Shown: piece by piece, positions 52 through 42,839 of the stretch
How positions within the stretch are numbered: the stretch's first letter is position 1
Layout: each line of letters starts with the position of its first letter
IMG/VR virus record: IMGVR_UViG_3300010373_000070
Span: 1-43,938 of that record
DNA length: 43,938 nucleotides
From: a virus
Reading direction: 5' to 3' (one strand)
Position numbers and translations under genes: made by a program
The notes under the pieces: model-generated
Told to the model about the DNA's origin: nothing
Databases searched by the model: none
Seen by the model: only the letters and a program-made list of their open reading frames with translations

Positions 52-62
52 CTTATAGCGAA
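52..62 (-). promoter_or_regulatory. Phage promoter motif TTCGCTATAAG
   Basis: An exact copy of the recurring 11-mer, oriented towards the gene leaving the window at the left edge. The distance to the likely ATG is 20 nt, longer than at most copies, and here a GAGGG ribosome-binding site fits into the leader. It lies just after the end of the HNH gene, so it would begin a new transcript. Confidence 0.7.
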
Positions 63-100
63 GGATTGAGACGCAAATTGAAACAGCGACGAATAATTCG

Positions 101-439
101 CTACCGTCTCTGACGAAGGTACGAAGCCGCGTTTTCCAACGCGCCAGGATTGTCCCCAAACAATCCGATACCGCGATTGCAATTGTGACAAAGCAATCCA
201 CGGACAACGCCGGTCACGTGATCATGATCGACATACAGCCACGGAGCACCACCCGTCGGCACTTGATGACAAATAGCACATGCGCCGTTCTGAGCTAGCT
301 TCATCGCCTCAAAAGCTTCGAAAGTGAGACCGTAACGTCTCTTCAGGTTTCGACGCTTGTTGGCAACCTTACCCTTCGCTGTCTTTTGATAGCGACGATT
401 CGCTTCGAGTTTATTGATGCTGGTGCTCATATTCATCAT
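101..439 (-). CDS. HNH endonuclease, Endonuclease VII type
   Basis: A small protein of about 112 residues with the phage Endonuclease VII/HNH signature: CAIC at about residue 54, then [15 protein letters not shown] and a second Cys pair (CHNC) that together bind zinc and form the ββα-metal nuclease core. The N-terminus is very basic, as expected for DNA binding. It is one of three related HNH genes on this strand, which suggests free-standing selfish endonucleases spread by homing. A role in resolving branched DNA before packaging is also possible. The start is uncertain: ATGs at 439, 436 and 430 all overlap the end of the preceding gene and none has a clear Shine-Dalgarno sequence. It ends in TAG. 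Confidence 0.8.
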
Positions 440-1172
440 GTTCAGGATTTATAAAATGAATCATGCCCGATCCGTCGAAACCGTAGCCTGGGAGAAGCGT
501 GCCGAGACTGCAACGGCAATGAGGATGCAGACCGCCGAGCTTGGGCGATTCGTCACCACGTTTATGGTAGCCGTGGCCGAGCTGGCTGAGCTTCCAAACG
601 CGCGGCGTGACTCCGTCGTCGCGTAGGTGCAGTCGCTTGCATTCATCGCACAAATGTTCATCGCGAACAACGATGAAGAACACCGTCGGATCGTCGATAC
701 CGCTCGCAGCGTTCACCTTGAGGATTCCGTCAAGCGTGCCGGTATTACGGACGTGAGTAGCTTCTGTGTCGACGATCTTCTTGACGCCTTCGGTGGCTTG
801 CTTCCAGACGTTCGTCAGCTCCATCGAAAGAGCATCGGCGACGTTATGATCGACGCCCTTGTGCTCGGCTTCGCGTAGAGCTGCCTCGACCGCGTGCACA
901 GCCTTCGTCTTGGTCGAAAGTCGCTGAGTATCGATATAGCCGTTCGCATCACGCAGGAGCGAATCGAGCAATTCGATATTCGGACGATTACGCTCTTCTA
1001 CGCTTGCTTGACGAAAAAGACCACCGAGCGTGAAGTCGGGAGTAATGCCGACACGCACACGCTTGTCTGTGTACCCGCCTCCGAGGACACGAGCCTTCAG
1101 GCGATCGAACAATTTATCAATAGCATTATGAATGCTACGAACCGCACCTTTACCAAGAGTTATTTTAGCCAC
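411..1172 (-). CDS. Phage head morphogenesis protein, Mu gpF-like minor head protein
   Basis: A 253-residue protein. The C-terminal part carries the pattern typical of Mu gpF/SPP1 gp7-like minor head proteins: [12 protein letters not shown] at about residues 172-183, then [19 protein letters not shown] near 213-231. The Cys and His residues are conserved in this family and probably coordinate a metal. Family members bind the portal and enter the procapsid during assembly. The gene lies shortly downstream of the portal gene, separated only by an inserted HNH gene, which is the usual order. Its 5' end overlaps the HNH gene by 8 nt. I infer a structural role in the virion; no enzymatic activity is claimed. 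Confidence 0.7.
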
Positions 1173-1563
1173 GCGCTCTCTCCAAATAAGCTGTAGCGCG
1201 TCTTAGCAAAGACGGATCGTCACGCAGCTTTCCGATACCAGTATTACAAGCCTGACAAAGCAGCCCACGAACAATGCCCGTCACATGGTCATGATCGACA
1301 TGAAAATATTTGTGCACATCCGGCGATCCTCCACAGATTGCGCAGCCACCGTTTTGTTCACGTAGCATTCGATCGTAATCGAGAAGAGTGAGACCATACT
1401 TCTTCAACTTCTTCTCTCGCTGCCAAAGAGGATTCGCTTCCTTACATTTCAGATAGCGATCTCGCGCCCTCTGCTTAGCTTCAGGCTTCTGAGCGAACCT
1501 CAAAGACGCAGCTCTGCGAGCTTGGAGAATCTGTTCAGGTGTTCTAGTAGATCTGCGAGCCAT
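1165..1563 (-). CDS. HNH endonuclease, Endonuclease VII type
   Basis: A 132-residue relative of the HNH genes at 101 and 6910. The core reads CAICGG at about residue 75, [15 protein letters not shown] and CQAC, giving two Cys pairs for zinc and the HNH catalytic histidines. Residues 1-55 are rich in Arg and Lys. It sits between the portal gene and the gpF-like head gene, which are neighbours in most phages, so it looks inserted. It overlaps the next gene by 8 nt, so the insertion did not break the operon. Confidence 0.82.
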   Translation of the reverse strand: MARRSTRTPEQILQARRAASLRFAQKPEAKQRARDRYLKCKEANPLWQREKKLKKYGLTLLDYDRMLREQNGGCAICGGSPDVHKYFHVDHDHVTGIVRGLLCQACNTGIGKLRDDPSLLRRATAYLERARG

Positions 1564-1578
1564 TCAGATCTAAGATTG

Positions 1579-3729: not shown

Positions 3730-3730
3730 A

Positions 3731-4711: not shown

Positions 4712-4738
4712 AGTGATTCCTTCTTGGGAAGATTGCGG

Positions 4739-6688: not shown

Positions 6689-6916
6689 TTACCACTTACT
6701 GCGAGCTACCAACAAATACGAGAGAATCTTGGGAAGCGCCTTGGCGATCTTTCCCTGCACCCATGAAAGAGCCTTGTACGGTACGCCGACAACGTAGAAC
6801 GATACGTGATAGTACGCACTGAGCATTTCAGCCCACGTCATCTCCGCGGTGAACTTGGTCCAGTTCCACGCGATCGTCAGGTATATCAGGACGGTTGACC
6901 AGAGCTTCGTTAGCAT
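6689..6916 (-). CDS. Small membrane protein
   Basis: A 75-residue protein with a hydrophobic N-terminal segment (about residues 5-18) and a second aromatic-rich hydrophobic stretch at about 31-48, ending in a basic tail. It has a good ribosome-binding site (GAGGAAAG) before the ATG and abuts terL with no gap. Its place inside the packaging cassette could suggest a lysis role, but no known family is recognised. Confidence 0.55.
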   Translation of the reverse strand: MLTKLWSTVLIYLTIAWNWTKFTAEMTWAEMLSAYYHVSFYVVGVPYKALSWVQGKIAKALPKILSYLLVARSKW

Positions 6917-7368
6917 ATTTCTTTCCTCGTAATATGTTTAGTGATGTAAACGATGTCGTTATTATAACTGCTTCGGATATAGTCGATCGCTCTCTTCAAC
7001 AGAGTCTCGCTATCCAACATCTTTCCGATAGTAGAGTTACATCTGAAACACAACAGACCACGCACTTTCCCGGTGGCATGGTCATGATCAACATGTGCAG
7101 AGCCCTTAAATGGCTGACAACAGATTGCGCAAAGCCCCTGTTGCCACTGAAATAGTCTGTCATAGTCTTCCAGAGTAATGCCATATTTCTTAATTAGATG
7201 ATTTCCCCTCATCTTCAATCGTACATCAGCCCTGTTTCGATACGTGTTCGTTACACGTTTGCCTCGGCACGGCGTACATTCCTTACGACGGCACTCAGTA
7301 CCCTTCGCGGTTTTGTAACGACCAAATTTCCCCTCTGGAAGATCTACTTTGCAGGCTTTACAAATCAC
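6910..7368 (-). CDS. HNH endonuclease, Endonuclease VII type, with N-terminal zinc knuckle
   Basis: A 152-residue protein. Residues 3-36 form a zinc-finger-like element (CKAC then CRRKECTPC). The nuclease core follows: CAICCQ at about residue 80, VDHDHATGKVRGLLC and CFRC. It is the third member of the HNH family in this arm and is more AT-rich in its codons than its neighbours (for example ATA, AAT and TTA codons), a sign of separate origin. It lies between the small terminase gene and the membrane protein/terL pair. HNH proteins beside terminases can be cofactors for DNA cleavage in some phages, but the three copies here favour mobile endonucleases. Confidence 0.82.
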   Translation of the reverse strand: MICKACKVDLPEGKFGRYKTAKGTECRRKECTPCRGKRVTNTYRNRADVRLKMRGNHLIKKYGITLEDYDRLFQWQQGLCAICCQPFKGSAHVDHDHATGKVRGLLCFRCNSTIGKMLDSETLLKRAIDYIRSSYNNDIVYITKHITRKEIC

Positions 7369-9723: not shown

Positions 9724-9734
9724 CTTATAGCGAA
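9724..9734 (-). promoter_or_regulatory. Phage promoter motif TTCGCTATAAG
   Basis: An exact copy just downstream of the sigma-factor stop codon, with 9 nt between the motif and the ATG of the co-chaperonin-like gene. There is no Shine-Dalgarno sequence in those 9 nt, so the mRNA would be almost leaderless. It would start a transcript covering co-chaperonin, SbcD, terminase and head genes. Confidence 0.75.
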
Positions 9735-9738
9735 TCTG

Positions 9739-10746
9739 TTAGAGGCTGAGACCGCGGAGCTTGAGGATCTTTTGCTCCAGGGGAGAGAGTTGAGCGACAG
9801 CCTGCGCGAGTGCCCCCATGCTGTCCATCTCCTCGCATATCACATCTGGCTGCGTTTCACGCGGTGCCTCGAAGCGGTCCTCGATGCGTACCTGATCCTC
9901 GCCTTCCGTGATATTTATTTCGATCGATACACACGACTGAGCTGCAAGGAGGCCGGCTAGCTCTGGTGCTGAAGTGCGGCCAGCTTTTTCGACACCGATG
10001 TTCACACGCTTCGCCAACTCTTCGATCGGCAGCTCTGCATTGCGACCGAGGATTTTGTTGGCTCGGTAGATCTTGCGCTTGTCAACCGGGTAGAAGTGAA
10101 TTTTCGTCTCTGAGTACTCTTCGATGAAGTTACCTGTCATGCGCTGGATCGCGACTGACGGAAACGCTCCTGCATCTGCCGAGGGAACGTACTTGTCCAC
10201 CGCATTCATCAGGCCCTCACAAGCGATGTCAACCAAGTCCATGTAGTCGAGATGAGAGCGAGGCGTGCGACTGAAGAAGATGCGGGCACGACTGATAGCA
10301 AGCGGCAGGTTCATCGTCACCAGCTCATGACGGAGGGTAACGATCTGCTGTGCGATCTTGACGACCTTTGAATTCGGCTTCCACGGATACGAGCCCAATA
10401 CGAATTGGACAAACGTGAAGTTGAAACGAAACTTCTGCAAGCGCTCGACGTCACCGTTCTTCAACGCCTTCGAGATCGAGCGGGTGAAGATGCGCTGGCG
10501 TTCACGGAAGAAGGGACGTGCAGCAAGGATATTGTGCTTGCTGACGTTGATGTAGCGAATGAACGCTTTGTACATCTTGTCGCCGAGAGAATGGTTCTTC
10601 AACGTCTCTCGGAATTCATCTTCGAGGGCGATGAGTGACTTGATCTGTTGCTGCTGACGCTTGTTGAAGTCCTCGGTGTCGCCGTAGCGTTCGATGGCCT
10701 TCTCTAGCGAGACAGCGAATTGACGGAAATGCGTATCGTCGGACAT
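9739..10746 (-). CDS. Sigma-70-family RNA polymerase sigma factor lacking most of region 4
   Basis: A protein of 335 residues. The core matches sigma region 2: LVTMNLPLAISRARIFF, then DYMDLVDIACEGLMNAVDKY (region 2.2, core-binding) and FPSVAIQRMTGNFIEEY (regions 2.3-2.4, -10 melting and recognition). A region 3-like stretch follows (YPVDKRKIYRANKILG, then LPIEELAKRVNIG). The chain ends at LSPLEQKILKLRGLSL, where region 4.1 begins, so the -35-reading helix-turn-helix is absent. The stop is followed directly by the next promoter, so this is not an obvious frameshift. The ATG at 10746 overlaps the helicase stop (TAATG). I infer that it directs the polymerase to the TYCGCTATAAG motif. Confidence 0.75.
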   Translation of the reverse strand: MSDDTHFRQFAVSLEKAIERYGDTEDFNKRQQQQIKSLIALEDEFRETLKNHSLGDKMYKAFIRYINVSKHNILAARPFFRERQRIFTRSISKALKNGDVERLQKFRFNFTFVQFVLGSYPWKPNSKVVKIAQQIVTLRHELVTMNLPLAISRARIFFSRTPRSHLDYMDLVDIACEGLMNAVDKYVPSADAGAFPSVAIQRMTGNFIEEYSETKIHFYPVDKRKIYRANKILGRNAELPIEELAKRVNIGVEKAGRTSAPELAGLLAAQSCVSIEINITEGEDQVRIEDRFEAPRETQPDVICEEMDSMGALAQAVAQLSPLEQKILKLRGLSL

Positions 10747-12856: not shown

Positions 12857-12867
12857 CTTATAGCGAA
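12857..12867 (-). promoter_or_regulatory. Phage promoter motif TTCGCTATAAG, left arm
   Basis: An exact copy, 6 nt before the ATG of the kinase-like gene, so transcription would start at or next to the start codon. It faces away from the copy at 12885-12895, with 17 bp between the two, making a divergent pair at the junction of the arms. Confidence 0.75.
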
Positions 12868-12884
12868 TCTCTTGTAAGGCCCGA

Positions 12885-12895
12885 TCCGCTATAAG
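12885..12895 (+). promoter_or_regulatory. Phage promoter motif TCCGCTATAAG, right-facing
   Basis: The plus-strand member of the divergent pair. No long gene follows at once. Seven nt downstream an ATG opens a six-codon frame (MGIWSN, stop TAG), then about 375 nt of non-coding sequence leads to the next promoter copy and the first right-arm gene. Confidence 0.65.
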
Positions 12896-13278
12896 TGCAG
12901 AGATGGGAATATGGTCCAATTAGATCGATTTGATGGTTGCGGATCGGAGCGTCAGCTCCGCAACTAAGAAGAAAACCTAAAGGTAGTAATCCTAGGTAGA
13001 CTGTTTACTATAAACCTCTCTTCTAAGATCTTAGTTAATAGTTAACTAGTAAGGTGCCTAAGGGAGACTTTTCAGCAAAGTTGCCCGTCGACTATTGGTT
13101 AATTCAATGATAAACGTCGATCGACTCCAGTAGGACTTCTGATCAAAAGTCACGCGGCGCACACTACATTGACGTCTTGATCGCTCCTTCCTTAGTCAGC
13201 TTACAAAAATCGAAACTTTTATTCGTTGGAAAGTGGTGTACCAACAATTCCAAACGGCAGACGACCTCCTCAAAAAGT
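12896..13278 (+). other. Non-coding control region between the arms
   Basis: About 380 bases without a convincing gene, more AT-rich than the surroundings. It holds a stable hairpin (12936-12964), the palindrome CCTAGG (12991-12996), an inverted repeat GTTTA/TAAAC (13003-13015), the perfect 12-bp palindrome CTAAGATCTTAG (13023-13034), a tandem TAGTTAA repeat (13032-13045), and two CGTCGA-containing sites (13086 and 13115). A GTG start at 13233 in frame with the next gene is possible but would place a promoter motif inside the coding region. The density of short palindromes suits operators or a replication origin; neither is proved. Confidence 0.45.
12936..12964. repeat. Inverted repeat, hairpin-forming
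   Basis: GTTGC and GGAGC, a GTCA loop, then GCTCC and GCAAC form a ten-pair stem with a five-base bulge (GGATC). An alternative pairing is GTTGCGGA with TCCGCAAC. No T-run follows on either strand, so it is not a standard terminator. It could be an RNA element in the right-facing leader or a DNA site in the control region. Confidence 0.5.
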
Positions 13279-13289
13279 TCCGCTATAAG
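13279..13289 (+). promoter_or_regulatory. Phage promoter motif TCCGCTATAAG
   Basis: An exact copy, 6 nt before an ATG at 13296 and without a Shine-Dalgarno sequence. It would drive the DNA-binding protein, chaperonin and SbcC operon, and it argues that the coding region begins at 13296 rather than at the GTG at 13233. Confidence 0.7.
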
Positions 13290-16669: not shown

Positions 16670-16911
16670 TGGCTCAGTACAAGTTCCTCTGTTCGACATG
16701 CGGGTTCAAGAAGGCCCGCTTGTCGCTCGATCCGTTCGATTGCCCTAAGTGCAAATCGCCGATGAAGAGGAACGCGAGCGGACCGACGAATCAAGTCTAC
16801 GAGCAGCTCGACAACGGGCTCATGCCTCGCAAGGTAGAGCGTCTAGCAGACGCAGAACGTCTATTCAAAGACCGCGCAAAGAACGATCCTAATGGCCAAG
16901 GTAACACTTAG
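16669..16911 (+). CDS. Small zinc-ribbon protein
   Basis: 80 residues. The first third is a zinc ribbon: CSTC at residues 8-11 and CPKC near 25-28. The rest is polar and helical. Zinc ribbons of this size are common in phages and usually bind nucleic acid or proteins; no specific role can be given. The 3' end overlaps the SbcC-like gene by 20 nt. Confidence 0.6.
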   Translation: MAQYKFLCSTCGFKKARLSLDPFDCPKCKSPMKRNASGPTNQVYEQLDNGLMPRKVERLADAERLFKDRAKNDPNGQGNT

Positions 16912-17743
16912 CCGTCTGACGTTGCAGAACTTCCGCTCGTTCGATGGCACTCATACAATCGATTTTGACGGAACAGGATTGTATCTGGTACGCGGGTATA
17001 ATCACGACTCGCGTGGAGAATCTGGTTCTGGCAAGTCTTCTCTGTTTCATGCCATCGCCTACGCCCTCGACTTTGCCCCCTATGCGGCTACAGAGCTGCG
17101 TACGTGGCACAACGACGATCCGATGTTCGTCGAGCTGGAGCTGGGAACCGATAAAGGTCCAGCCGTCATTCATCGTGGCGACAAGCTCTGGCTGAAGTAC
17201 GAAGGTAAGAAGATCACCAGCGCGAAGGCTGTCGCCGAGAAGATCGACGAGATCTGCGGCATCAACAAGAAGCTTCGTGAGGCGATCACATACCGTCGTC
17301 AGCGCACCTTCGGTTTGTTCCTTTCTAAGACCGATAGAGAGAAGAAAGAATTCCTCATCGAGCTTCTCGGCCTTCATTGGCTAGAGGAAGCTATCGAGGC
17401 TGCCACCAAGAAGGTCACTGAGTGCAAGAAGGCTGTCGACGCTCACGTGCCGATGCTGGAGCTGCACAAGAAGCTCGTGGCCGAAGCGAAGGAACGAGTC
17501 ATCGCTCCCAACTTCACTGACACCACCCGCCTAGAGCAAGAGATCGATCTCGCCGTAGCCGAGCTGCGTGAGGCTGCTGATATTCGCGCTGCCGCACAAG
17601 CGGACGTTGACGCAATCAAGTACGAAGCGTTCGACTACGACACTTCGCTGATTGATCGTCAAGAGCACATCATCCAGCAATGCCAATTCCGTATCAGTCG
17701 CCTCGGTCAACCCGAGCTATTGGTGCAACGTGCGCAGCGTTAG
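16892..17743 (+). CDS. SbcC/Rad50-like ATPase, N-terminal half (ends at in-frame TAG)
   Basis: 283 residues up to an in-frame TAG at 17741-17743. It carries the first half of an SMC-type ATPase: LQNFRSFDGTHTIDF at the N-terminus, Walker A GESGSGKSSL at about 46-55, a Q-loop-like TYRRQRTFGLF region, then the ascending coiled coil. The Zn hook and Walker B are missing because they lie beyond the stop, in the same frame (next entry). Read through, the product would be 613 residues, close to T4 gp46 (560). It would work with the SbcD-like nuclease at 8384-9388. The TAG may be a real nonsense mutation, a sequencing error, or a site of suppression. Confidence 0.8.
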   Translation: MAKVTLSRLTLQNFRSFDGTHTIDFDGTGLYLVRGYNHDSRGESGSGKSSLFHAIAYALDFAPYAATELRTWHNDDPMFVELELGTDKGPAVIHRGDKLWLKYEGKKITSAKAVAEKIDEICGINKKLREAITYRRQRTFGLFLSKTDREKKEFLIELLGLHWLEEAIEAATKKVTECKKAVDAHVPMLELHKKLVAEAKERVIAPNFTDTTRLEQEIDLAVAELREAADIRAAAQADVDAIKYEAFDYDTSLIDRQEHIIQQCQFRISRLGQPELLVQRAQR

Positions 17744-17773: not shown

Positions 17774-18733
17774 TTGTTCGACGACAAGTGTCCTCGCTGC
17801 GATCGTCAATGGGATCAGGCTCAGGCCGAGATGGAGAAGAACCATCAGGAGATCCAGCGTCAGGAAGTGAAGCTCAAGGAAGCGGAAGAAGCTCTAACCA
17901 AGCTCAAGACGATGCGCGAGATGGAAGCTACGATGGTGAAGCAGCTCGACGAGCTGAAGCTCCAGATGCAGGCTGCCGAGCGCACATATTTGGCCGACAA
18001 CCGAAAGCTCTCCGAATTCAAGTACGCCAAGCTGAAGGAAGCTGATGGCGATTTGGTCGTGCGTGAACGCGGCATCAATAATCTACGTACACGTCTCCAG
18101 GCCCTCAAGAACGGAAACGAGCTGAACGCAAGACTTCATGCGCAGGCGAACGAAGCTGTGCTTGGTGCCAAAGTGAAGCTCATGACCGCTGCTGCCGACC
18201 ACATCAATCTGGAGCAGCTTGAGAAGCGTGAGATTGACTTTCTCGGAATGTTGCGTGGCTTCCTCGGGCAGATCTTCGCCGAGCTATTGGCCGAAGTCTC
18301 GAACGAGACGAACCGAATCCTTTCGAACCTGCCGAACGCATCGAAGGTGACGCTGCACTTCGAGACTGATCGTGAGACGCAGGATGGCAAGCTACGCAAC
18401 GAGATCACGCCGGTTGCATTCTTCGGTGGTCGTCACTGGCCGCTGGAGTCTGGTGCGTCAGGAGGTATGTTCACGTCCATCGAGTTGGCTGTTGACCTCG
18501 CAGTCGCCAACGTCATCTCACGTCGCACTGGTGTCGAGCTGGGCTGGCTGATCCTCGACGAGTCATTTGCCAACGGATCGGACAAGGTCACGAAGGAAGG
18601 CTGTCTCGAAATCTTGAAGCAATACTCCGACGACAAGCTCATCATCGTTGTCGAGCATGCTTCCGAATTCAAGGAAATGTTCTCGCGTGTGATCGAAGTC
18701 GATTACCGCGATGAACGATCGAGGATCAGATGA
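17774..18733 (+). CDS. SbcC/Rad50-like ATPase, C-terminal half (after in-frame TAG)
   Basis: The continuation of the preceding frame. From the first possible start (TTG at 17774) it has 319 residues. It begins with the zinc hook CPRC (residues 6-9), then the descending coiled coil (about 15-150), the ABC signature ASGGMFTSIELA near 240 and Walker B GWLILDESF near 269. No Shine-Dalgarno sequence is seen before the TTG, and ten codons separate it from the TAG, so independent translation is doubtful. If both halves were made, they would together hold all parts of the ATPase head. It overlaps the next gene by ATGA. Confidence 0.7.
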   Translation: MFDDKCPRCDRQWDQAQAEMEKNHQEIQRQEVKLKEAEEALTKLKTMREMEATMVKQLDELKLQMQAAERTYLADNRKLSEFKYAKLKEADGDLVVRERGINNLRTRLQALKNGNELNARLHAQANEAVLGAKVKLMTAAADHINLEQLEKREIDFLGMLRGFLGQIFAELLAEVSNETNRILSNLPNASKVTLHFETDRETQDGKLRNEITPVAFFGGRHWPLESGASGGMFTSIELAVDLAVANVISRRTGVELGWLILDESFANGSDKVTKEGCLEILKQYSDDKLIIVVEHASEFKEMFSRVIEVDYRDERSRIR

Positions 18734-19105: not shown

Positions 19106-19116
19106 TCCGCTATAAG
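19106..19116 (+). promoter_or_regulatory. Phage promoter motif TCCGCTATAAG
   Basis: An exact copy just after the TAG of the preceding gene. The leader to the ATG is 22 nt and contains AGGAG at 19129-19133, so this transcript would use a normal ribosome-binding site, unlike most others. Confidence 0.75.
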
Positions 19117-19554: not shown

Positions 19555-20214
19555 ATGAAAGTTCTCTGCATCGATTTGTCGCTTCATTGCGGCTGGGCCG
19601 TTATGGAAGGCGAGCAAGGTCAAGATCCAAAGCTCGAAAGTTACGGAACACTTCACTACGAAGGAAATACCGTCAAGGAACGGAACAATTATCCTTGGTC
19701 GTATCTCGGAGTAGTGGCTGAGCATGTCAGCACGATCATGAAGCTGCTCGTCGAGCACGTCGCTCCTGACGTGATCGTGATCGAAGAAACGAACAAGGGC
19801 AAGAATCGATACAGTCAGAAGATGCTGGAGTTTTTGCATCACCAGCTCCTAGAGCAGATCGGCTTCCTACAATTCCGATCTGACACTGCACCTCTGAAGT
19901 TCAAGAAGCTGCCACCAGACGTCGTCTACCTCGACACGTCTCACTGGCGATCCATCCTCGGCATTTGGATGTCGAAGGACCAAAAGAAAAACAACGCAAA
20001 GCTGTCGAAGGCGAAGCGCGAAGGCAAGGATGCACTGAAGGCGATGAAGGAAAAGCTCGGCGTGCGTGGTAAGACGAATAAGAAGCACGTCGCTATCGCA
20101 CACGCAAACGCAACCTTCGGTCTACAACTTCGTGTCAAGGACAACGACGCAGCCGATGCGATCTGTTTGGGCCTTGCCTATTTCAAGGGTGCGACTCCAA
20201 GCAATGGCGTTTGA
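19555..20214 (+). CDS. RuvC-like Holliday junction resolvase
   Basis: 219 residues with the RNase H-like resolvase pattern: first acid in LCIDLSLHCGW (residues 4-14), second in VIVIEET near 81, and the terminal acid pair in KDNDAADAICLGLAY near 198. A Lys-rich insert lies at about 140-180. It would cut four-way junctions before packaging and during recombination. No promoter motif lies between it and the terminator just upstream, so its promoter is unclear; the ATG is only 5 nt from the terminator tract. The 3' end overlaps the HNH gene. Confidence 0.75.
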   Translation: MKVLCIDLSLHCGWAVMEGEQGQDPKLESYGTLHYEGNTVKERNNYPWSYLGVVAEHVSTIMKLLVEHVAPDVIVIEETNKGKNRYSQKMLEFLHHQLLEQIGFLQFRSDTAPLKFKKLPPDVVYLDTSHWRSILGIWMSKDQKKNNAKLSKAKREGKDALKAMKEKLGVRGKTNKKHVAIAHANATFGLQLRVKDNDAADAICLGLAYFKGATPSNGV

Positions 20215-20644
20215 TCAGAAGGCATATCATAAGCAGTGGTGCAAGGATCATCCAGAGCGAGTGAAGGCTTATAAAGACCGATCGCTCAAGAAGCATCCTC
20301 AGAAGAAACGTAGATCTGAGAACGTACCTGCATATCGACTATATGCCTATCGTGCTTGGGATAAGAAGCATGGCTTCACTGACACTCTTTCAAAAGAAGA
20401 AGCTGTTGAAGCAATGATGATGGAATGCACTTATTGCGGTCTGCTTCCAGCAAATGGATTGGATAGGGTCGACAGTAGTCAAGGTCATCATACAAACAAC
20501 GTCATTGGATGTTGTGAGAAGTGTAATTTCATTCTTGGGGATCTTCCTAGAGAAGCCAAGGCCGAGCTGATTGAAGGTCTATCTCGGATCCGGGAACAAG
20601 GTCTGCTAAGTAATTGGATAATTCCTACTAAAAGGAACAAATGA
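20204..20644 (+). CDS. HNH endonuclease
   Basis: About 146 residues from the ATG at 20204. The basic N-terminus (residues 1-40) is followed by CTYCGL near residue 72, LDRVDSS, HHTNNVIGCCEKCN and GDLP: two Cys pairs around the conserved Asp-Arg-Val of an HNH nuclease fold. It is a different subfamily from the Endonuclease VII-type genes in the left arm. Its codons are more AT-rich than those of the flanking genes, in line with a mobile gene inserted between the resolvase and the reductase. The frame is open to 20066, but that part overlaps the resolvase. Confidence 0.7.
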   Translation: MAFDQKAYHKQWCKDHPERVKAYKDRSLKKHPQKKRRSENVPAYRLYAYRAWDKKHGFTDTLSKEEAVEAMMMECTYCGLLPANGLDRVDSSQGHHTNNVIGCCEKCNFILGDLPREAKAELIEGLSRIREQGLLSNWIIPTKRNK

Positions 20645-22648: not shown

Positions 22649-22659
22649 TTCGCTATAAG
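22649..22659 (+). promoter_or_regulatory. Phage promoter motif TTCGCTATAAG
   Basis: An exact copy in the short gap after the reductase gene, 8 nt before the ATG of the next gene, with no ribosome-binding site between. Confidence 0.75.
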
Positions 22660-26035: not shown

Positions 26036-26256
26036 TGACCCCGGAAGAAATGAAGCATATGATTGAGACCGATCCTGATTACATCGCCAGCAAGCGATAC
26101 GGGTATTCTCTCAACACGCTCCTGGAGCGCTACCCTGATGGGTGCCCGGATCGCATTATAGCGAATGTTCTTCAGATGAGCGAAGAGGAAGTGGAGACCG
26201 CCTACCAAGGGATCGTCCGCAAGCTCCGCTCATTGATGAAGGTCGATTCGCTATAA
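26035..26256 (+). CDS. Small helix-turn-helix protein resembling sigma region 4
   Basis: 73 residues from the ATG at 26035, which overlaps the preceding stop (TAATG). The second half, DRIIANVLQMSEEEVETAYQ followed by IVRKLRSLMK, has the spacing of a sigma-factor region 4 helix-turn-helix (IA..L..S...V......RKLR). Residues 1-35 are helical. Because the phage sigma factor at 9739 lacks this region, I suggest this protein could act as a separate region-4 or flap-binding partner, like T4 gp33. That is inference; it may simply be a small DNA-binding regulator. The next promoter motif overlaps its last codons. Confidence 0.4.
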   Translation: MTPEEMKHMIETDPDYIASKRYGYSLNTLLERYPDGCPDRIIANVLQMSEEEVETAYQGIVRKLRSLMKVDSL

Positions 26257-26257
26257 G
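26247..26257 (+). promoter_or_regulatory. Phage promoter motif TTCGCTATAAG
   Basis: An exact copy that overlaps the end of the preceding gene. The leader to the ATG at 26283 is 25 nt and carries a strong AGGAGG Shine-Dalgarno sequence at 26271-26276. Confidence 0.75.
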
Positions 26258-27098: not shown

Positions 27099-27109
27099 TT
27101 CGCTATAAG
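27099..27109 (+). promoter_or_regulatory. Phage promoter motif TTCGCTATAAG, polymerase
   Basis: An exact copy, 10 nt before the ATG of the polymerase gene. The sequence AGAGCTGT follows the motif here and at 19106. No Shine-Dalgarno sequence is visible. Confidence 0.78.
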
Positions 27110-30975: not shown

Positions 30976-31713
30976 ATGGATCTAGAAACAATTCTCAAGA
31001 ATCTCGACGACGCAGAACGTATGGCTGCGATCGATCCGAACGAGCCGCAGTACACCAAGACGCGCGCTGGTATCGAGACTGCAATCAAGGGCGCGAAGGA
31101 TCGCGTTCAGAAGCTCAAGGGCGATTACGCAACTACCGTTCAAGCAAACGGAGTAGCAATCTTCCTCCACGGCCCGGAAGGTAAGGTCCAGGAATTCACG
31201 ACTCTCGTGAGGGATCTGGGCGAGGCAGTTGTCATCGACGCTGCTGAGCTGTACACGCAGCGCTTCCTGCCGGTCCTCGAAGGTTCTCTCGGCCCTAAGC
31301 GCGAGTGGAATTCGACTCAGGCGGCGATCATGCATCGCCTTCTCGCAGAGGTAGGCAAGGAACTAAAGGTGTTCATGACGCGCGCTATGCGCCTCCCGGC
31401 AACGATGACGTTGCCCGAGAAGTCAGACACCCTCAACTTCATCCGTAACACGATCCGCGAAGAGCTGGGCGATGACTTCAATGCTCAGTACCTCCGCAAC
31501 GCTGTTGCTCGTGAAGGGCTAAAGATTCGCTATATGGGTGCTGTAGCTCCGGTGATCGTAGTGAATGCAACCCCGGAAGAGGCAATCGGCCTCGGCCAAC
31601 TCTTTGGTCGTGGTAAGGCGACCGTAACGATCACAGACGAAGACACTGTCAACGAGGAATTCATCAAGGCAACATTCAAGTCAGTACAAAAGCAAATCAA
31701 GAACAAGAAGTAA
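30976..31713 (+). CDS. Hypothetical protein downstream of the polymerase
   Basis: 245 residues from the ATG at 30976, which follows an AAGGA site. It begins with a coiled-coil-like helix (residues 1-45) and later has a mixed domain (about 150-240) with VAPVIVVNATPEEAIGLGQL. No family is recognised. Its place between the DNA polymerase and the SSB-like protein suggests a replication accessory, perhaps a clamp-loader or SSB partner, but no ATP-binding motif is seen. Confidence 0.5.
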   Translation: MDLETILKNLDDAERMAAIDPNEPQYTKTRAGIETAIKGAKDRVQKLKGDYATTVQANGVAIFLHGPEGKVQEFTTLVRDLGEAVVIDAAELYTQRFLPVLEGSLGPKREWNSTQAAIMHRLLAEVGKELKVFMTRAMRLPATMTLPEKSDTLNFIRNTIREELGDDFNAQYLRNAVAREGLKIRYMGAVAPVIVVNATPEEAIGLGQLFGRGKATVTITDEDTVNEEFIKATFKSVQKQIKNKK

Positions 31714-32834: not shown

Positions 32835-32867
32835 GGGCCCGGCGTGTAAACGCCGGGCCCTTTTCTT
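32835..32867 (+). terminator. Rho-independent terminator
   Basis: A perfect 10-bp GC stem, GGGCCCGGCG (32835-32844) with CGCCGGGCCC (32851-32860), a 6-nt loop TGTAAA and the tail TTTTCTT. It lies immediately after the SSB-like gene and should end the polymerase operon efficiently. Confidence 0.92.
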
Positions 32868-33479: not shown

Positions 33480-33490
33480 TCCGCTATAAG
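33480..33490 (+). promoter_or_regulatory. Phage promoter motif TCCGCTATAAG, recombinase
   Basis: An exact copy two bases after a TAG stop, 9 nt before the ATG of the recombinase gene. No ribosome-binding site lies between. Confidence 0.78.
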
Positions 33491-34624: not shown

Positions 34625-35634
34625 TGTTTCAGAAGGTAGACCCGGAAGTCCTTCGAGCCTTCATCGAAGGCTCCGGGCTTACCTATGACCAGAATTCGGT
34701 ATCGTGGATCTTCACCTGTCCGCGATGCACGAAGTCCAAGAAGCTCTATCTCCGAAAGCGTGATGGACGATTCGTCTGTTGGCGTTGCAAAGAGACAGAT
34801 AACTTCCAGGGACGTGCTGAGTACGCTCTCTCCGAGCTGACTGGGCAATCGTTCGCTGACGTCTGCCGTTTCCTCTACGGCGACATTCCCCTCCGCGCAG
34901 ACTCAACGTTCGACGCTCGTATCGAAGACTTCTTCGGCGAAGGCGACGACGTTGACGGTGAAGCAACCGAGCACGCGATCATCCGCTGGCCCTCTGACTT
35001 TCTTCAGATGGACCATCCACACGCCGTGCGCGGTCGCGAGTACATGAAAGAGCGCGGCGTACCAACTCGCCTCCAGCTCAGCTACGGCTTGCGATACTCG
35101 CCAGAGAATCGTCGAGTATATTTTCCAATTGGCGAGCGCGGACTCCTCTACGGCTACCAAGGTCGCTTGGTCATTCCTCACGTCTACATCGACGAGGAGA
35201 CGGGTGAGAAGAAGGAAGTGCCGAAGATCCTCTCGTCCAAGGGCGTGCGGCGCGACCGTCTCCTGATGTTCTCAGATCGCTTGAAAGACTGGCAACACGC
35301 AGTGGTGTGTGAAGGCCCTGTCGATGCAATCAAGGCCCATTACTGCCGCGGTAATGTCGCCACAATGGGCAAGGAAGTGTCGCACCAGCAAATGCGCCTG
35401 CTCATCAACAGCGGTGTGCAGCGTGTGTATGTGGCGCTCGATCCTGATGCCACGGAGGCGATCGAGAAGATGGTGACTGATTTGTACGGGGATGTAGAAG
35501 TCTACGAGATGATCCCGCAGAAGCTCGGTCAGAAGATCGACCTAGGTGCGATGTCTTTCGACGAAGTGTACGAACTATTCCTCGGCGCTCGCCGATTCGA
35601 GACCCGCCTCTTCATCGACATCAACTTCACCTGA
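34624..35634 (+). CDS. DnaG-type primase with zinc-binding domain and TOPRIM domain
   Basis: 336 residues, shorter than cellular DnaG. The N-terminal zinc ribbon has CPRC (about 33-36) and CWRC (about 53-56). The TOPRIM domain has VVCEGPVDAIKAH near 230 with the catalytic Glu and VALDPDA near 275 with the Asp pair. The C-terminal helicase-interaction domain of cellular DnaG is absent. It would lay RNA primers for the polymerase at 27120, with the helicase at 37054. The last 60 bases overlap the 3' end of a gene on the opposite strand. Confidence 0.85.
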   Translation: MFQKVDPEVLRAFIEGSGLTYDQNSVSWIFTCPRCTKSKKLYLRKRDGRFVCWRCKETDNFQGRAEYALSELTGQSFADVCRFLYGDIPLRADSTFDARIEDFFGEGDDVDGEATEHAIIRWPSDFLQMDHPHAVRGREYMKERGVPTRLQLSYGLRYSPENRRVYFPIGERGLLYGYQGRLVIPHVYIDEETGEKKEVPKILSSKGVRRDRLLMFSDRLKDWQHAVVCEGPVDAIKAHYCRGNVATMGKEVSHQQMRLLINSGVQRVYVALDPDATEAIEKMVTDLYGDVEVYEMIPQKLGQKIDLGAMSFDEVYELFLGARRFETRLFIDINFT

Positions 35635-36675
35635 GTCGGCCGGGCCCGAGCCGCCGCAAATGTCGCAACCTTCCTGGTGCAGACGCAACTGCTTCGCCGC
35701 TTCACGGCGCGCGTCCGAATGCAGCAGGATGTTCTGCTTCGCAAACTTCAGCGTCGAGACCATGCCGTCATGATCCATCGCAGCGAGCCCTTCACGGAGC
35801 AGCTTCGCCGCCGAGCGCTTGCGAGCCGTCGGATTCGACGTATCGAGCTTGCGATTGCGGTCGCGATAGTCGTCGTCGACGGGCTGCTCGTCGATCGGGT
35901 TGCTGTAGTCCTTGAACCCGTGGATGTACGCGACATCCTGCTCGACGATCGGCGCAGCTTCACCATCGGCGTTGAAGTTCGCACGACCGCGATACGCCTT
36001 GCCGAGCAACGCCACGGCGACGGTGTCGGCGTCGGGCATCGTCGAGCGCTCCTTCGCCGACAGGATCTTGAAGATCTCGGCGAAGCGCTGGCGCAGCCAC
36101 ACGTAGAGCGTCTGCTCGTTGTGCTGGTCGTCCTTCTCCTCGTCCTCGATCTGGGCGCAGAAGATGTTGAGCAGCACCATCGCGTACGTGCGGAGATCTT
36201 CCACCGACTTGCCCCAGCGACGGCAGGGCGAGTTGTTCAGGTTGTAGAAGTTCCAGCAAGCCTTGTGCATGACCTTGTCGTACTTGGCGTACTTTTCGGC
36301 CGGCGCATTCGGCGAGCGACGGAACGCGGTGTGCCGCACGCACACGAGGAAGTCGTCGTCGGTGTAGCAGAGCTTCTGCTCGGGCTGCACGCCGCGATCG
36401 ACGGGCACCGGGTTGCCGTAGCCCGCAGCGCTGGTGATGACGTGGTACGCCGCGAAAGCCACGTCGAGCTTCTTGCCGGTGATGTCGGTGGCCAGAACGT
36501 CGATGACGTTCGGAGCGGGCTTGGTCTGGTCGCGACGTTCGCAGACACGGACCTCGATGTCACCCAGGCGTCCCTGGACGCTGAAATCGCAGCCGGCGAC
36601 GGTCGACTTGGTAAAGGGAACCTTGTTTGCCCGGAGCCAGGAACGGATGAGGTTGCGAGCAGTGAACGTATTCAT
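35575..36675 (-). CDS. Hypothetical protein, inverted in the replication region
   Basis: 366 residues from the ATG at 36675, which has a strong TAAGGAGG ribosome-binding site 6 nt upstream (36682-36689). No family is recognised. The N-terminus is basic (TFTARNLIRSWLRANKV); the C-terminal 60 residues have a CDICGGSG zinc-knuckle-like motif and an acidic end. It is the only gene on the minus strand in the right arm, is clearly richer in GC than its neighbours and overlaps the primase gene by 60 nt at their 3' ends. These features suggest later acquisition. It may have its own control, given the variant promoter at 36763. A DNA- or RNA-binding role is a guess. Confidence 0.6.
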   Translation of the reverse strand: MNTFTARNLIRSWLRANKVPFTKSTVAGCDFSVQGRLGDIEVRVCERRDQTKPAPNVIDVLATDITGKKLDVAFAAYHVITSAAGYGNPVPVDRGVQPEQKLCYTDDDFLVCVRHTAFRRSPNAPAEKYAKYDKVMHKACWNFYNLNNSPCRRWGKSVEDLRTYAMVLLNIFCAQIEDEEKDDQHNEQTLYVWLRQRFAEIFKILSAKERSTMPDADTVAVALLGKAYRGRANFNADGEAAPIVEQDVAYIHGFKDYSNPIDEQPVDDDYRDRNRKLDTSNPTARKRSAAKLLREGLAAMDHDGMVSTLKFAKQNILLHSDARREAAKQLRLHQEGCDICGGSGPADSGEVDVDEEAGLESASAEE

Positions 36676-36681
36676 GGTAAG

Positions 36682-36689
36682 CCTCCTTA
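36682..36689 (-). promoter_or_regulatory. Strong ribosome-binding site TAAGGAGG
   Basis: A near-complete anti-16S complement, 6 nt before the ATG of the inverted gene. It decides the start at 36675 against the upstream ATG at 36741. It contrasts with most genes in the window, which lack such a site. Confidence 0.8.
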
Positions 36690-36762
36690 CAGTTTTGTTA
36701 CGAGAGTAAAAGATCCCCATTGGGCCTACCGGAAGTTTCAAAAAGACCTCCCGGTCATGACC

Positions 36763-36773
36763 CTTGTAGCGAA
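36763..36773 (-). promoter_or_regulatory. Variant promoter motif TTCGCTACAAG
   Basis: One base off the consensus (TACAAG for TATAAG), facing the inverted gene. Four nt later an ATG opens a six-codon frame (MTGRSF, stop TGA), and a short GACC/GGTC inverted repeat followed by TTTTT overlaps it. The real gene starts about 60 nt further on with its own strong ribosome-binding site. Confidence 0.4.
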
Positions 36774-36813
36774 TCTTTTACGGGGTCGATGCTTTGAGGA
36801 TCATCTAGAGAGT

Positions 36814-36824
36814 TTCGCTATATG
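36814..36824 (+). promoter_or_regulatory. Variant promoter motif TTCGCTATATG
   Basis: One base off the consensus. It lies 8 nt before the ATG of a 53-codon frame and upstream of the helicase gene, and points away from the variant at 36763, repeating the divergent pair layout of 12857/12885. Confidence 0.5.
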
Positions 36825-36832
36825 AGCATTGT

Positions 36833-36994: not shown

Positions 36995-37053
36995 TTTTGT
37001 AACACTTTCGCCACTTTCCAATGGCAAATATTTTTCTCTTCCTGAGGTAGAAG

Positions 37054-38526: not shown

Positions 38527-38537
38527 TTCGCTATAAG
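38527..38537 (+). promoter_or_regulatory. Phage promoter motif TTCGCTATAAG
   Basis: An exact copy beginning directly after the helicase stop codon, 8 nt before the ATG of the protease gene. A second ATG in another frame lies at 38542 and is not used by a long frame. Confidence 0.75.
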
Positions 38538-38545
38538 GGTGATGA

Positions 38546-39109: not shown

Positions 39110-39705
39110 CTCCGTTCACCGTAGCTTGGAATTGGCTCAAGGCTCATCCGGTAATCCGCACGATCGCGTTCTGCCTCTTGGTGTTCGCTCTCGGTTTCGG
39201 CACAGCCATCTTCGCTCGCCCGGCCAAGGTCGTAGAAAAGACCAAGACCGTGACGCAGTATCAGGACAAGATCGTCTACCAGGATCGCGTCGTCACTCAG
39301 ATCCAGTACGTGCAAGTCGAGAAGAAGCATGAGACGCAGACGCAGACCGTAACGACTCACACCGACGGCACGTCGACGACTGTGACGCAGACGACAACCG
39401 ACACGAACAATAACGTCAATCAAACGACGAATACTGACGAGAACAAGACGAAGACTGAGACGAAGTACATCACTCAGATCGTCGAGAAAGAAAAGATGGT
39501 TCTCAATCAGCCGAATTGGCTCGTGCACGCAGGCGTCGGCTATCAATTTGCGAAGTTCGCAGGCCAGAACGAAACTGGCATCCCAGGTATGCAGGGTGTC
39601 GTAGTTGAGGTTGGTGCAGATCGTCGCATCGCAGGCCCCGTATTCATCGGCCTGTCGCTCAATACTCAATACACCGCGTTCCTCAATCTGAGCGCTGCAT
39701 TTTAA
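39106..39705 (+). CDS. Membrane-anchored Thr/Gln-rich protein
   Basis: 199 residues. One transmembrane helix near the N-terminus (about 18-37, IRTIAFCLLVFALGFGTAIF) is followed by a long Gln/Thr/Val-rich stretch of alternating residues (about 40-125), probably extended or coiled, and a C-terminal domain (about 138-199) of beta type. The layout resembles membrane-tethered phage proteins such as spanins, but no cysteine or lipobox is present. The start overlaps the protease stop (ATGA). Confidence 0.5.
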   Translation: MTPFTVAWNWLKAHPVIRTIAFCLLVFALGFGTAIFARPAKVVEKTKTVTQYQDKIVYQDRVVTQIQYVQVEKKHETQTQTVTTHTDGTSTTVTQTTTDTNNNVNQTTNTDENKTKTETKYITQIVEKEKMVLNQPNWLVHAGVGYQFAKFAGQNETGIPGMQGVVVEVGADRRIAGPVFIGLSLNTQYTAFLNLSAAF

Positions 39706-40685: not shown

Positions 40686-41284
40686 TATCAGATCAAAACG
40701 AAATCGAAGCGAAGCTCGCTGCCGATCACGTCAACATCGAAGCCTTCAAGAAGTGGATGTTCACGAATCGCAACATCGAGAAGTTCGTCGAGATCACCAG
40801 TCCCGATACCTACTACGAACAGGGCGATCGTGCGGTACGCCAGCGTGGCGACGATGACGACGCTCATCACGAGCTGACAATCAAGCTACGCAAGAATGAG
40901 AATTCGACCCGCGACCGCGTCGAGATCGATCTGAAGTTCTCACCGGACACGTCAGCGTTCAACGTACGCTGCTTCCTCGAAGCCGCTGGTTTCAAGCGAG
41001 TGTTCACTCTGACGAAGACGGCTCACATCTTCTGGGTCCGACACAGCGACAACTTCAAGATGAGCTACGTCATCTACGACGTATGGAAGGTTGGCGGGCT
41101 CGACAAGCCCCGTCGCTTCATTGAAGTCGAAGCGGAGAAGGGCAGCAACGTCACTGTCGAAACAGCAAAGCGTCGCGTGCGTGAAGCCGTACGCGAGCTG
41201 CGAGACATGTTCGCTCTCGGCGAGCCTCTGAACGATTCTCTCTATGAGATCTACAGCGGCAAGAAGTATCAGGTGCAGCAGTGA
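40682..41284 (+). CDS. CYTH-domain protein (triphosphate tunnel metalloenzyme)
   Basis: 200 residues from the ATG at 40682. The family's ordered charged motifs are present: NEIEAKL at the start (ExExK), TYYEQGDRAVRQRG near 43-55, ELTIKLRK, RVEIDLKF, a KTAHIFWVR strand and RFIEVEAEKG near 158. Members hydrolyse or cyclise triphosphates (thiamine triphosphatase, class IV adenylate cyclase, RNA triphosphatase), so the exact substrate is open. It is joined by overlaps to the aminotransferase before and the Nudix gene after, suggesting one pathway. Confidence 0.72.
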   Translation: MISDQNEIEAKLAADHVNIEAFKKWMFTNRNIEKFVEITSPDTYYEQGDRAVRQRGDDDDAHHELTIKLRKNENSTRDRVEIDLKFSPDTSAFNVRCFLEAAGFKRVFTLTKTAHIFWVRHSDNFKMSYVIYDVWKVGGLDKPRRFIEVEAEKGSNVTVETAKRRVREAVRELRDMFALGEPLNDSLYEIYSGKKYQVQQ

Positions 41285-41724
41285 AGAAATTCGTAGTGGG
41301 CTTTGCCTTCACCGAGGACATGGATGAAGTCGTACTCGTCCGCAAGAATCGTCCTGAGTGGCAGGCAGGCAAGCTGAACGGTGTTGGTGGCAAGGTCGAA
41401 GAGGGCGAGTCATTCAGCTCGGCGATCGGCCGCGAATTCGAAGAAGAGACCGGCGTACCGCGAGAGAATCAGCACTGGGCTCTCATCGCAACGATCGGTG
41501 ACGAAAAATACAAGATGTACATTTTCGCAGGCAAGGGCGACTGGGCCCTCGATGCGACGACTACGACGGACGAAAATATCGCTCGATACAACGTAGAGAA
41601 CTTCATCCGCGAGAACATCGGACCATCTCCCACGGCAATCTTTAATATACCGTGGCTGCTACTCATGGCTCGACAGATGCTCATGGGTCGCGACAAGGCA
41701 CCTTACTACAGCATCGAGCACTAA
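41281..41724 (+). CDS. Nudix hydrolase
   Basis: 147 residues. A complete Nudix box spans about residues 36-58 (GGKVEEGESFSSAIGREF, then EEETGV), so metal-dependent cleavage of a nucleoside diphosphate linked to another group is expected. It starts with GTG, overlapping the CYTH stop as GTGA. Possible substrates include 8-oxo-dGTP, dinucleoside polyphosphates or NAD-type cofactors; the sequence does not choose. Placement next to a CYTH protein suggests that both act on nucleotides. Confidence 0.85.
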   Translation: MKKFVVGFAFTEDMDEVVLVRKNRPEWQAGKLNGVGGKVEEGESFSSAIGREFEEETGVPRENQHWALIATIGDEKYKMYIFAGKGDWALDATTTTDENIARYNVENFIRENIGPSPTAIFNIPWLLLMARQMLMGRDKAPYYSIEH

Positions 41725-41725
41725 G

Positions 41726-41998
41726 ATGGTCAACCGCCGACTCACACGTGTCGTGATCTCTCCTGGGCATCCTGGGCGAGTACGATACTCCGTAGAGCTG
41801 ACGGGCGAGGACTGTCCTAAGGGCACGGCTGAAGCGCTCGTACGTCAGAATCTTTTTCTTCATTGGATTGCCGACAATCAGGAACTACTCCGTTGCGGGA
41901 TCCAACAGTGGGACAAGCTGCGCATCGAGCACGATGGCGTGTGCTGGAAACTCAATGCTGAAGCTGAGGTGGATGAGGATACGAAAGACGGAGAGTAA
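41726..41998 (+). CDS. Hypothetical protein, 90 residues
   Basis: A small soluble protein with a basic start (MVNRRLTRVVISPGH) and an acidic end. It has two Trp residues and a short strand-helix pattern. No family is recognised. It starts 1 nt after the Nudix stop and ends just before the next start, so it is part of the same operon. Confidence 0.5.
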   Translation: MVNRRLTRVVISPGHPGRVRYSVELTGEDCPKGTAEALVRQNLFLHWIADNQELLRCGIQQWDKLRIEHDGVCWKLNAEAEVDEDTKDGE

Positions 41999-42277
41999 AT
42001 GGGTAAGCGCCGCGTGCAGCATCGGCAAACACGTGACACCAACACCAAGGTTCAGAGAGAATATGAACAAGAGAACCGTCAACTCAAACGCGAAGTAGCT
42101 AGACTTCGCAAACAGCTTGATCAGGCTGAGGCTCCCATCGAAGAAAACGAAAAGGAAGAGCCGAAGTCAACACTCAAGTGCCCCACCTGCAATGGCACCA
42201 ATATCGCCTCGATCTCCACACCATCGGGGAAAACTCGCTTCATCTGCCGCGACTGCGGTTGGCGAGGACAACCATAA
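41999..42277 (+). CDS. Coiled-coil and zinc-ribbon protein
   Basis: 92 residues in two parts. Residues 1-45 are basic and then form a leucine-zipper-like coiled coil (REVARLRKQLDQAE); residues 61-91 are a zinc ribbon with CPTC and CRDCGW. The combination of a dimerising helix with a zinc ribbon would suit a small transcription or nucleic-acid-binding factor. No known phage family is assigned. It starts directly after the previous stop. Confidence 0.55.
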   Translation: MGKRRVQHRQTRDTNTKVQREYEQENRQLKREVARLRKQLDQAEAPIEENEKEEPKSTLKCPTCNGTNIASISTPSGKTRFICRDCGWRGQP

Positions 42278-42279
42278 CT

Positions 42280-42290
42280 TCCGCTATAAG
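42280..42290 (+). promoter_or_regulatory. Phage promoter motif TCCGCTATAAG
   Basis: An exact copy. The leader to the first start (42318) is 27 nt, the longest seen, and shows no clear Shine-Dalgarno sequence. Confidence 0.7.
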
Positions 42291-42317
42291 AGACACGTAG
42301 CCCGGATCCTCCTCGGG

Positions 42318-42401
42318 ATGACGTACGGCAACTCTGTGCTTTTGGATCAGAGAACCATGCTTCAGATCGAGATCGGGTGGCGTCTCCTGGAGTCAGCATG
42401 A
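42318..42401 (+). CDS. Very small ORF, 27 residues
   Basis: The product would read MTYGNSVLLDQRTM and continue to a TGA that overlaps the next start (ATGA), the coupling seen elsewhere in the window. It lies between a promoter motif and a supported gene, so it could be a leader peptide that carries ribosomes to the next start. It may also be untranslated leader. Confidence 0.35.
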   Translation: MTYGNSVLLDQRTMLQIEIGWRLLESA

Positions 42402-42613
42402 CAAAGGGTTCGCCCAAAGAAGAATGTGAACAGGTTCTAAAGGACATCGAAGAGATGCACGGAATGAAACCGTGGTACATCGCCGGTTATCTCGATAACG
42501 ACGATCACGGTACGCATGTCGTCATCAAAGTCAGAGCTGACTTCTTCCAAAGAGAGAAGATTCGACATCCAAACCTCAACGTCAAGGTCTGCACGTACTT
42601 GATCCATAAGTGA
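42398..42613 (+). CDS. Hypothetical protein, 71 residues
   Basis: A small soluble protein (MTKGSPKEECEQVLKDIEEM) with a helix followed by strands and one His-rich part (DNDDHGTHVVIKVRAD). The start is set by the ATGA overlap; the open frame runs upstream but that region is leader. No family is recognised. Confidence 0.5.
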   Translation: MTKGSPKEECEQVLKDIEEMHGMKPWYIAGYLDNDDHGTHVVIKVRADFFQREKIRHPNLNVKVCTYLIHK

Positions 42614-42620
42614 GTGTCCA

Positions 42621-42827
42621 ATGAAGTGCCCGAACGCAGATAAGGGTTTTTGCCCATCGAAGCGCGATATGAACGAGCACACCAATGAATGGTGGAGCGA
42701 GTACTATTGCGAGACGTGCGGACACGAGCACAAGGACAGGTTCGAAGTCGCTCGCGTGATTAAGCGCGATCCCCTCCCTCCACTTCCGCCTCGCCGGAAG
42801 AAGCCCTCTACTCCCGACCGCTACTAG
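42621..42827 (+). CDS. Small zinc-finger protein
   Basis: 68 residues. Cys residues lie at CPNADKGFC near the start and CETCGHEH in the middle, enough for one or two zinc sites. The C-terminal third is Pro/Arg-rich (PLPPRRKKP). It starts 7 nt after the previous stop and ends in TAG just before the next promoter motif. Confidence 0.5.
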   Translation: MKCPNADKGFCPSKRDMNEHTNEWWSEYYCETCGHEHKDRFEVARVIKRDPLPPLPPRRKKPSTPDRY

Positions 42828-42828
42828 T

Positions 42829-42839
42829 TTCGCTATAAG
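42829..42839 (+). promoter_or_regulatory. Phage promoter motif TTCGCTATAAG
   Basis: An exact copy, beginning 1 nt after a TAG stop and 8 nt before the ATG of the next gene. Confidence 0.75.

Follow-up and report, generated by a model that had tools for sequence, protein, structure and literature searches.

A putative phage-specific promoter class without a −35 element and with predicted leaderless messages in relatives of Myxococcus phage Mx1

The 11-mer TYCGCTATAAG, present in thirteen exact copies in a 43,938-base linear virus record (its whole length is referred to below as the window), very probably represents a phage-specific promoter class that gives leaderless or near-leaderless messages, judging from the sequences of the window and its relatives. 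Specifically, the 11-mer would occupy positions −17 to −7 of a promoter lacking a −35 element (class 1), with the hexamer TATAAG at −12 to −7 and TYCGC before it in the extended −10 position. Initiation is predicted at a purine 7 nt downstream of TATAAG, and for most copies the predicted +1 would be the A of an ATG or would lie 2–4 nt before it, leaving mRNAs leaderless or nearly so. Class 1 appears to serve mainly replication, recombination, nucleotide, chaperone and sigma-run genes, and a second class, [CT]AATCTT (class 2), with the same register, would be used by many late structural genes; these gene sets comprise labelled genes only, many genes downstream of either class being without a label. 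Host RNA polymerase would be redirected by a phage specificity factor, a step that we infer. The preliminary description had taken the motif for an extended −10 element of a phage-specific promoter without a −35, which still seems the best reading, as the predicted start and the cognates in relatives agree with it.

These start sites are predicted to a single base in a large-phage family on whose transcription we found no data; one member, Mx1, grows on a laboratory strain of Myxococcus xanthus. The family pairs a sigma factor seemingly without a −35 reader with promoters without a −35, and is naturally suited to studying how promoter sequences and their specificity factors change in concert. 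It also allows one to ask how leaderless phage messages are translated; such messages as such are already known (PMC5312081).

The DNA polymerase of the window is 47.7% identical to that of Mx1, where the homologue is annotated as Pol III alpha. The window has recognisable genes for terminase, portal, GroEL, RNR, recombinase, primase, helicase and a sigma-like protein, and so is a genome fragment, perhaps amounting to a quarter of a genome the size of that of Mx1. Mx1 has a contractile tail and a genome of 169,621 bp, and the accessible part of its announcement contains no transcription data (PMC10720576). The relatives compared were Mx1, found by tblastn, and about 30 IMG/VR loci, found through the sigma factor; megablast of the first 25 kb of the window against phages gave no match, and a DNA polymerase scan of IMG/VR gave no relatives. 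Literature searches returned no paper describing the class 1 motif or Mx1 transcription, in the motif-string search among the matches listed.

All thirteen copies in the preliminary description are exact in coordinate and strand (10 plus, 3 minus), and the expectation from dinucleotide shuffles is 0.02. The 11-mer read backwards does not occur in the window. There are also four copies with one mismatch and two with two mismatches, and with these the count is 19 against 14.0 expected, a level attained in 13 of 100 shuffles and hence no excess over chance, so the class 1 signal resides in the exact match. The absence of a shared −35 also stands: among 40 upstream columns in 18 copies (window and IMG/VR locus G001), none near −30 is conserved, and more than 0.4 bit is reached only at 1, 3 and 6 nt before the motif, with A favoured. 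Upstream of the 42 copies in locus G003, only the two bases adjoining the motif stand out.

The placement of the copies had been described as pointing into the next gene at an operon break. The first part holds for ten of the thirteen, with an ORF of 71 or more codons starting 6–25 nt after the motif, and fails for 62 (−), 12885 (+) and 42280 (+), which have no ORF start near, the first being at the window edge. The second part has to be revised. Nine of the thirteen copies lie 0–16 nt behind the stop of the preceding same-strand ORF, one overlapping it, and terminator-like sites are no commoner than in shuffles (scan of 1–40000). Thus, the copies resemble promoters internal to gene arrays rather than marks of operon breaks.

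The offset at which a start site was looked for was taken from the motif-to-ATG register of G003. At that offset, index 17 from the motif start and 7 nt after TATAAG, a purine is found in 18/18 copies (13 in the window, 5 in G001), and a pyrimidine–purine step spans 6–7 nt after TATAAG in 17/18 (p ~7e-10); at other offsets (11 to 33) the step occurs in 0–10 of 18. With the T of TATAAG at −12, index 17 is +1, and the pyrimidine–purine step is probably the start site. A start 6–8 nt after TATAAG, as anticipated in the preliminary description, agrees with this purine and with the fixed ATG register of G003. The step is also present in three of the four one-mismatch copies of the window vs 37 of 139 three-mismatch sites.

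The predicted mRNAs of eight copies begin with ATG, GTATG, GAATG, AGCATG, GTAATG or GTTAATG. Because the predicted +1 falls on the A of ATG or 2–4 nt before it, these mRNAs would be leaderless or nearly so; the ATG lies 0, 2, 3 or 4 nt after +1 in the window, unlike the fixed offset in G003. Fully leaderless starts are predicted at 12857–12867 (−), before a thymidylate-kinase-like/helicase/sigma run, and at 13279–13289 (+), before a 140-aa gene just upstream of GroEL. At 9724–9734 (−), the predicted mRNA begins AGCATG, with ATG 3 nt in, and would encode a 108-aa protein from the gene after the sigma gene; class 1 occurs at the same place in G001 and G003. The other short leaders are predicted at 22649–22659 (+) (GTATG; HNH-endonuclease-like gene), 27099–27109 (+) (GTTAATG; DNA polymerase gene), 33480–33490 (+) (GTAATG; UvsX/RecA-like gene), 38527–38537 (+) (GAATG; Clp/head-maturation-protease-like gene) and 42829–42839 (+) (GAATG; 71-aa gene).

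Two further copies have a predicted Shine-Dalgarno (SD) leader, namely 19106–19116 (+), with predicted mRNA GTCTACAGGAGTTATCATG and a 114-aa gene, and 26247–26257 (+), which overlaps the stop of the previous ORF, with predicted leader GAGACCCAGGAGGAGCCCAATG and a 73-aa gene. At 52–62 (−), motif TTCGCTATAAG, the predicted start is 45 and no ORF is seen before the window edge; 42280–42290 (+) has no clear ORF downstream. The copy at 12885–12895 (+), the divergent partner of 12857, has no predicted gene start, and the ~380 nt after it (12896–13278) contain no ORF of at least 21 codons near the motif, no notable ORF and no Rfam match. Back-to-back divergent motifs beside the helicase/sigma run are seen at 12857–12895 in the window, 91868–91905 in G003 and 152869–152899 in locus G021. 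Among the near copies, TTCGCTATATG at 36814–36824 (+) is a probable class 1 variant, with the same pyrimidine–purine step, the ATG register and a 53-codon ORF. Its divergent partner, TTCGCTACAAG at 36763–36773 (−), is a possible variant with the step and faces a reversed gene (35575–36741) without assigned function. Another possible variant, TTCGCTATATG at 31526–31536 (+), has the step and lacks an ATG in register.

Eight of the thirteen copies lie within 10 nt of the point where an ORF of 71 or more codons begins, a closeness that would also suit a translation-enhancing element, or a protein-binding element of replication or packaging, rather than a promoter. Such an element is very unlikely: the SD copies lie farther from their ATG yet have the pyrimidine–purine step, the motif occurs in divergent pairs, and the two classes have distinct sets of labelled downstream genes.

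The promoter reading is supported and refined by the relatives, in which cognates of the motif were found. G001, whose sigma is 83% identical to that of the window, has the same 11-mer five times. Three orthologous sites keep the motif at 11/11 positions while the 40 nt upstream match at only 11–13; the GC contents of this pair differ (41% and 54%). The footprints compared include 12857–12867 (−) with G001 10465+ and 13279–13289 (+) with G001 10212−. The cognate in G003, ATTCGCTAT, occurs 42 times vs 0.04 expected, and in 21/42 the distance from motif start to ATG is exactly 18 nt (0.45 expected), while 39/42 have a purine at that offset; several of the non-ATG copies start with GGAGG or AGGAG (SD) there. 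G021 has ATTCGATAG 27 times vs 0.15 expected, and locus G002 has GATTCGCTATA six times, three of them holding TATAAATA. The base at −7 is G in 18/18 copies of the window and G001 and in 38/42 of G003.

Of 30 further records, 10 contain TYCGCTATA, at 0–2 copies per virus record except for four in G006; in two bacterial MAGs it stays below its control. The looser T[TC]CG[CA]TA[TG] is in clear excess in the window, G002, G003 and G021, in little excess in G001 (8 vs 4.8) and L040 (5 vs 2.2), and in mild excess in G004, G006 and L057, rows without the TTCG[CA]TA label. Class 1 precedes the helicase/sigma run and GroEL in G002, G003 and G021, DNA polymerase in the window and G003, and SSB and SbcC in G003; a ClpP-like gene follows it in the window and, in the looser form GCGCTATA, in G006. 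Exceptions are found in G003, where class 1 stands before a cyclase-like gene and SSB has both classes within 11 nt. In Mx1, AGATCCGCT (15 copies) was considered as the same motif and dropped, as several copies read TTGAC...AGATCCGCTAGTAT with sigma70 spacing; Mx1 itself apparently employs another element, roughly [AT]GATCAACGC-n-GTA.

Class 2 is found before baseplate, sheath, tube and prohead protease genes and the gene between TerL and portal. Before the TerL–portal gene it is exact in 25 of 29 rows, which include near duplicates (L030 lies in G004), and in 28/29 if the last T is left free. It precedes two baseplate genes in 8/10 and 9/10, prohead protease in 8/15, sheath in 5/11 and tube in 3/11, and is not ahead of every structural gene (capsid 0/13, portal 2/29). 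Before class 1-type genes it is almost absent: helicase 0/26, GroEL 1/26, DNA polymerase 0/15, RecA 0/14, SSB 0/14, ClpP 0/11 and the post-sigma gene 1/18; one copy before a phosphatase-like gene in G021 is an exception. The window has six copies of CAATCTT, only two of which are clearly ahead of a gene start, namely 4729–4735 (−), before the gene between TerL and portal, and 1572–1578 (−), with an ATG 8 nt after it, before an endonuclease-VII-like gene. The class 1 ATG register recurs in class 2 of G021 (11/38), Mx1 (6/41), G017 (7/55), G025 (6/35) and G028 (6/53), where 0.45–0.78 are expected by chance; G005 and G013 show it only weakly, and in G020 it was not seen. By these counts, class 2 is more conserved than class 1 across the family, class 1 being lineage-specific and class 2 family-wide.

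Class 1 resembles several known promoter types in part. Extended −10 sigma70 promoters (TGnTATAAT) likewise have conserved bases immediately before a TATA-like −10, whereas class 1 has CGC, not TGn, at −15 to −13 and G, not T, at −7. Leaderless promoters, e.g. TANNNT 6–8 nt before the start codon, share a start site at or next to ATG, but class 1 is phage-specific and has an extended upstream block. T4 middle promoters, probably of the same temporal class, consist of a MotA box plus a −10 (PMC11598898), whereas class 1 has no box near −30 and its extra element abuts the −10. T4 late promoters are also −10-only, without a −35, and their motif TATAAATA, read by the phage sigma gp55 (PMC1524935), is the one inside the three G002 copies. 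The window differs in its conserved TYCGC before the hexamer and in the hexamer itself (TATAAG 13/13, TATAAATA 0), and its labelled class 1 genes are mostly of replication type; among five genomes counted, only G002 has the TATAAATA core. T4 gp55 matches phrog_234 and the window sigma phrog_351, and the two are not detectably homologous (hhalign aligns only 25 columns, probability 0.8%).

Ordinary sigma70-type promoters are a separate matter. The strict pattern occurs 0 times in the window, and looser scans of 1–40000 are at or below chance (4 vs 9.6 and 6 vs 9.3 expected). Strict promoters are enriched in Mx1 (29 vs 5.9), G021 (15 vs 1.6), G025 (39 vs 8.1) and several other relatives, and show no enrichment in G003 (2 vs 0.8) or G028 (11 vs 10.4). 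The enrichment suggests an early host-read promoter tier in some members. G003 is nearly devoid of sigma70-type promoters, so class 1 there may act on early genes as well, blurring a 'middle' label. In G025 (e.g. 23839 − and 131879 −), TTGACA-17-TATATT promoters have an ATG a few nt downstream, and short or absent leaders may extend to the early class there.

One possible but doubtful reader of class 1 is the holoenzyme of the host primary sigma, modified by an early phage protein in an appropriation like that by AsiA/MotA. TATAAG is 5/6 of TATAAT, and in several relatives the same genes have sigma70-like promoters ahead of them, such as TTGACT-17-TATTGT before the DNA polymerase in G025 and TGCTATACT in G005. 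The near-constant G at −7 in place of T argues against it, as do the missing conserved block near −30 and the fact that no candidate appropriator was recognised; likewise, class 1 has no TTGACA-like −35 at 16–18 nt and no T at −7.

A phage sigma factor is encoded at 9739–10746 (−) (335 aa, ATG at 10746; sigma70 regions 2 to 4.1). It matches RpoD/SigA over E. coli residues 374–564 (from E 4.4e-6), and its match to Pfam Sigma70_r2 is below the Pfam cut-off. The best Foldseek match of the AlphaFold model (pLDDT 83, pTM 0.63) is a SigA-bearing chain (E 1.8e-5), and the alignment of the model to E. coli sigma70 extends as far as residue 566–567. Aligned with 6ca0_F by VIA-align, it gives Z 14.0 and an rmsd of 11.9 over 301 residues, a high rmsd over the whole chain of a helical protein. 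As modelled, the protein is a sigma with region 2 and an overall sigma70-like fold. The region 4.2 helix-turn-helix is absent, the alignments ending at E. coli sigma70 residue 564–567, and 30/30 homologues examined (25 + 5; two pairs identical, some repeats or short loci left out) end there or within ~20 residues. The −35-reading helix of sigma70 lies beyond this point. Since the phage sigma stops before region 4.2, it should not read a −35, and no other candidate reader of −35-less promoters was recognised. The homologue in L057, an IMG/VR contig, is ~758 aa long, with a long insert inside the expected region 2.4, the DNA-reading part, that looks like an intein.

The sigma itself might read class 1 and autoregulate its own gene run, class 2 being read by something else. 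A −35-less motif fits a sigma without region 4.2, the sigma run belongs to the class 1 set, and half of the six G002 copies carry the T4 late motif, itself read by a phage sigma. On the sigma tree, one change suffices for the TTCG[CA]TA rows (with weak support, 27/85), and with a single change shared ancestry alone could explain any correlation between sigma and motif. All rows carry sigma, but only 6/29 are labelled TTCG[CA]TA, by inspection, and class 2 accompanies sigma family-wide; with sigma present in many relatives without TTCG[CA]TA excess, its link to class 1 is weak. In addition, residues placed in regions 2.4–3.0 are nearly invariant, while class 1 changes by lineage. We regard this reading as possible but doubtful. 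Reading of class 2, rather than class 1, by the sigma is somewhat favoured, because a sigma made from a class 1 gene run would serve the next tier, as in a cascade.

No early factor able to read class 1 was found. G003 has 84 ORFs common to the group and rare elsewhere, many of them probably shadow frames; none of the 12 inspected is an obvious regulator, and two resemble tyrosine integrases. The G021 genes behind sigma70-type promoters include no recognised factor. A search of 14 records for a second sigma (Pfam region 2, region 4.2 and phrog_351) gave nothing that passed Pfam cut-offs. Sub-threshold region 2 matches number one in each of 10 records, two in G029 and none in G017, G021 and G025, that in G013 lying elsewhere than its phrog_351 match; phrog_351 has one match in 13 records and none in G021, and region 4.2 has six sub-threshold matches. 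Since the related-locus search shows a sigma in G017, G021 and G025, these profile searches are not exhaustive.

If class 1 were read by a single-subunit (T7-like) RNA polymerase of the phage, this would account for a motif that is short and nearly invariant, adjoins the start site and lacks a −35. Such a reader is extremely improbable, as PF00940 finds nothing in 14 records (Mx1, G003, G021 and 11 others, including the window, itself a fragment of its genome) and does find T7, the positive control. Our tentative picture, to which we give rather less than an even chance, is that Mx1-like phages use a conserved multi-step −35-less cascade with leaderless or near-leaderless mRNAs for much of the genome and two readers: for the lineage-specific class, an unrecognised phage factor reprogramming host RNA polymerase, and for the family-wide late class, a new family of sigmas that would have lost region 4.2 and hence act without any −35.

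Several neighbouring genes may be recorded here. The conserved gene without assigned function at 35575–36741 (−) is reversed relative to its replication neighbours, as in Mx1, and the plus-strand ORF 35677–36825 is its shadow. It was tried and rejected as a class 1 factor, as Pfam gives nothing of weight and an IMG/VR scan gives no relatives. Rfam (gathering) and tRNA searches of the window found none. The sole strong terminator-like hairpin in 1–40000, at 32835–32860 (+), directly follows a 355-aa gene whose product is 33% identical to Mx1 SSB. An SbcC-like protein is split over the adjacent ORFs 16892–17743 and 17774–18733 (+). Four endonuclease-VII-like genes (101–439, 1165–1563 and 6910–7368, minus; 20066–20644, plus) are scattered among structural and replication genes.
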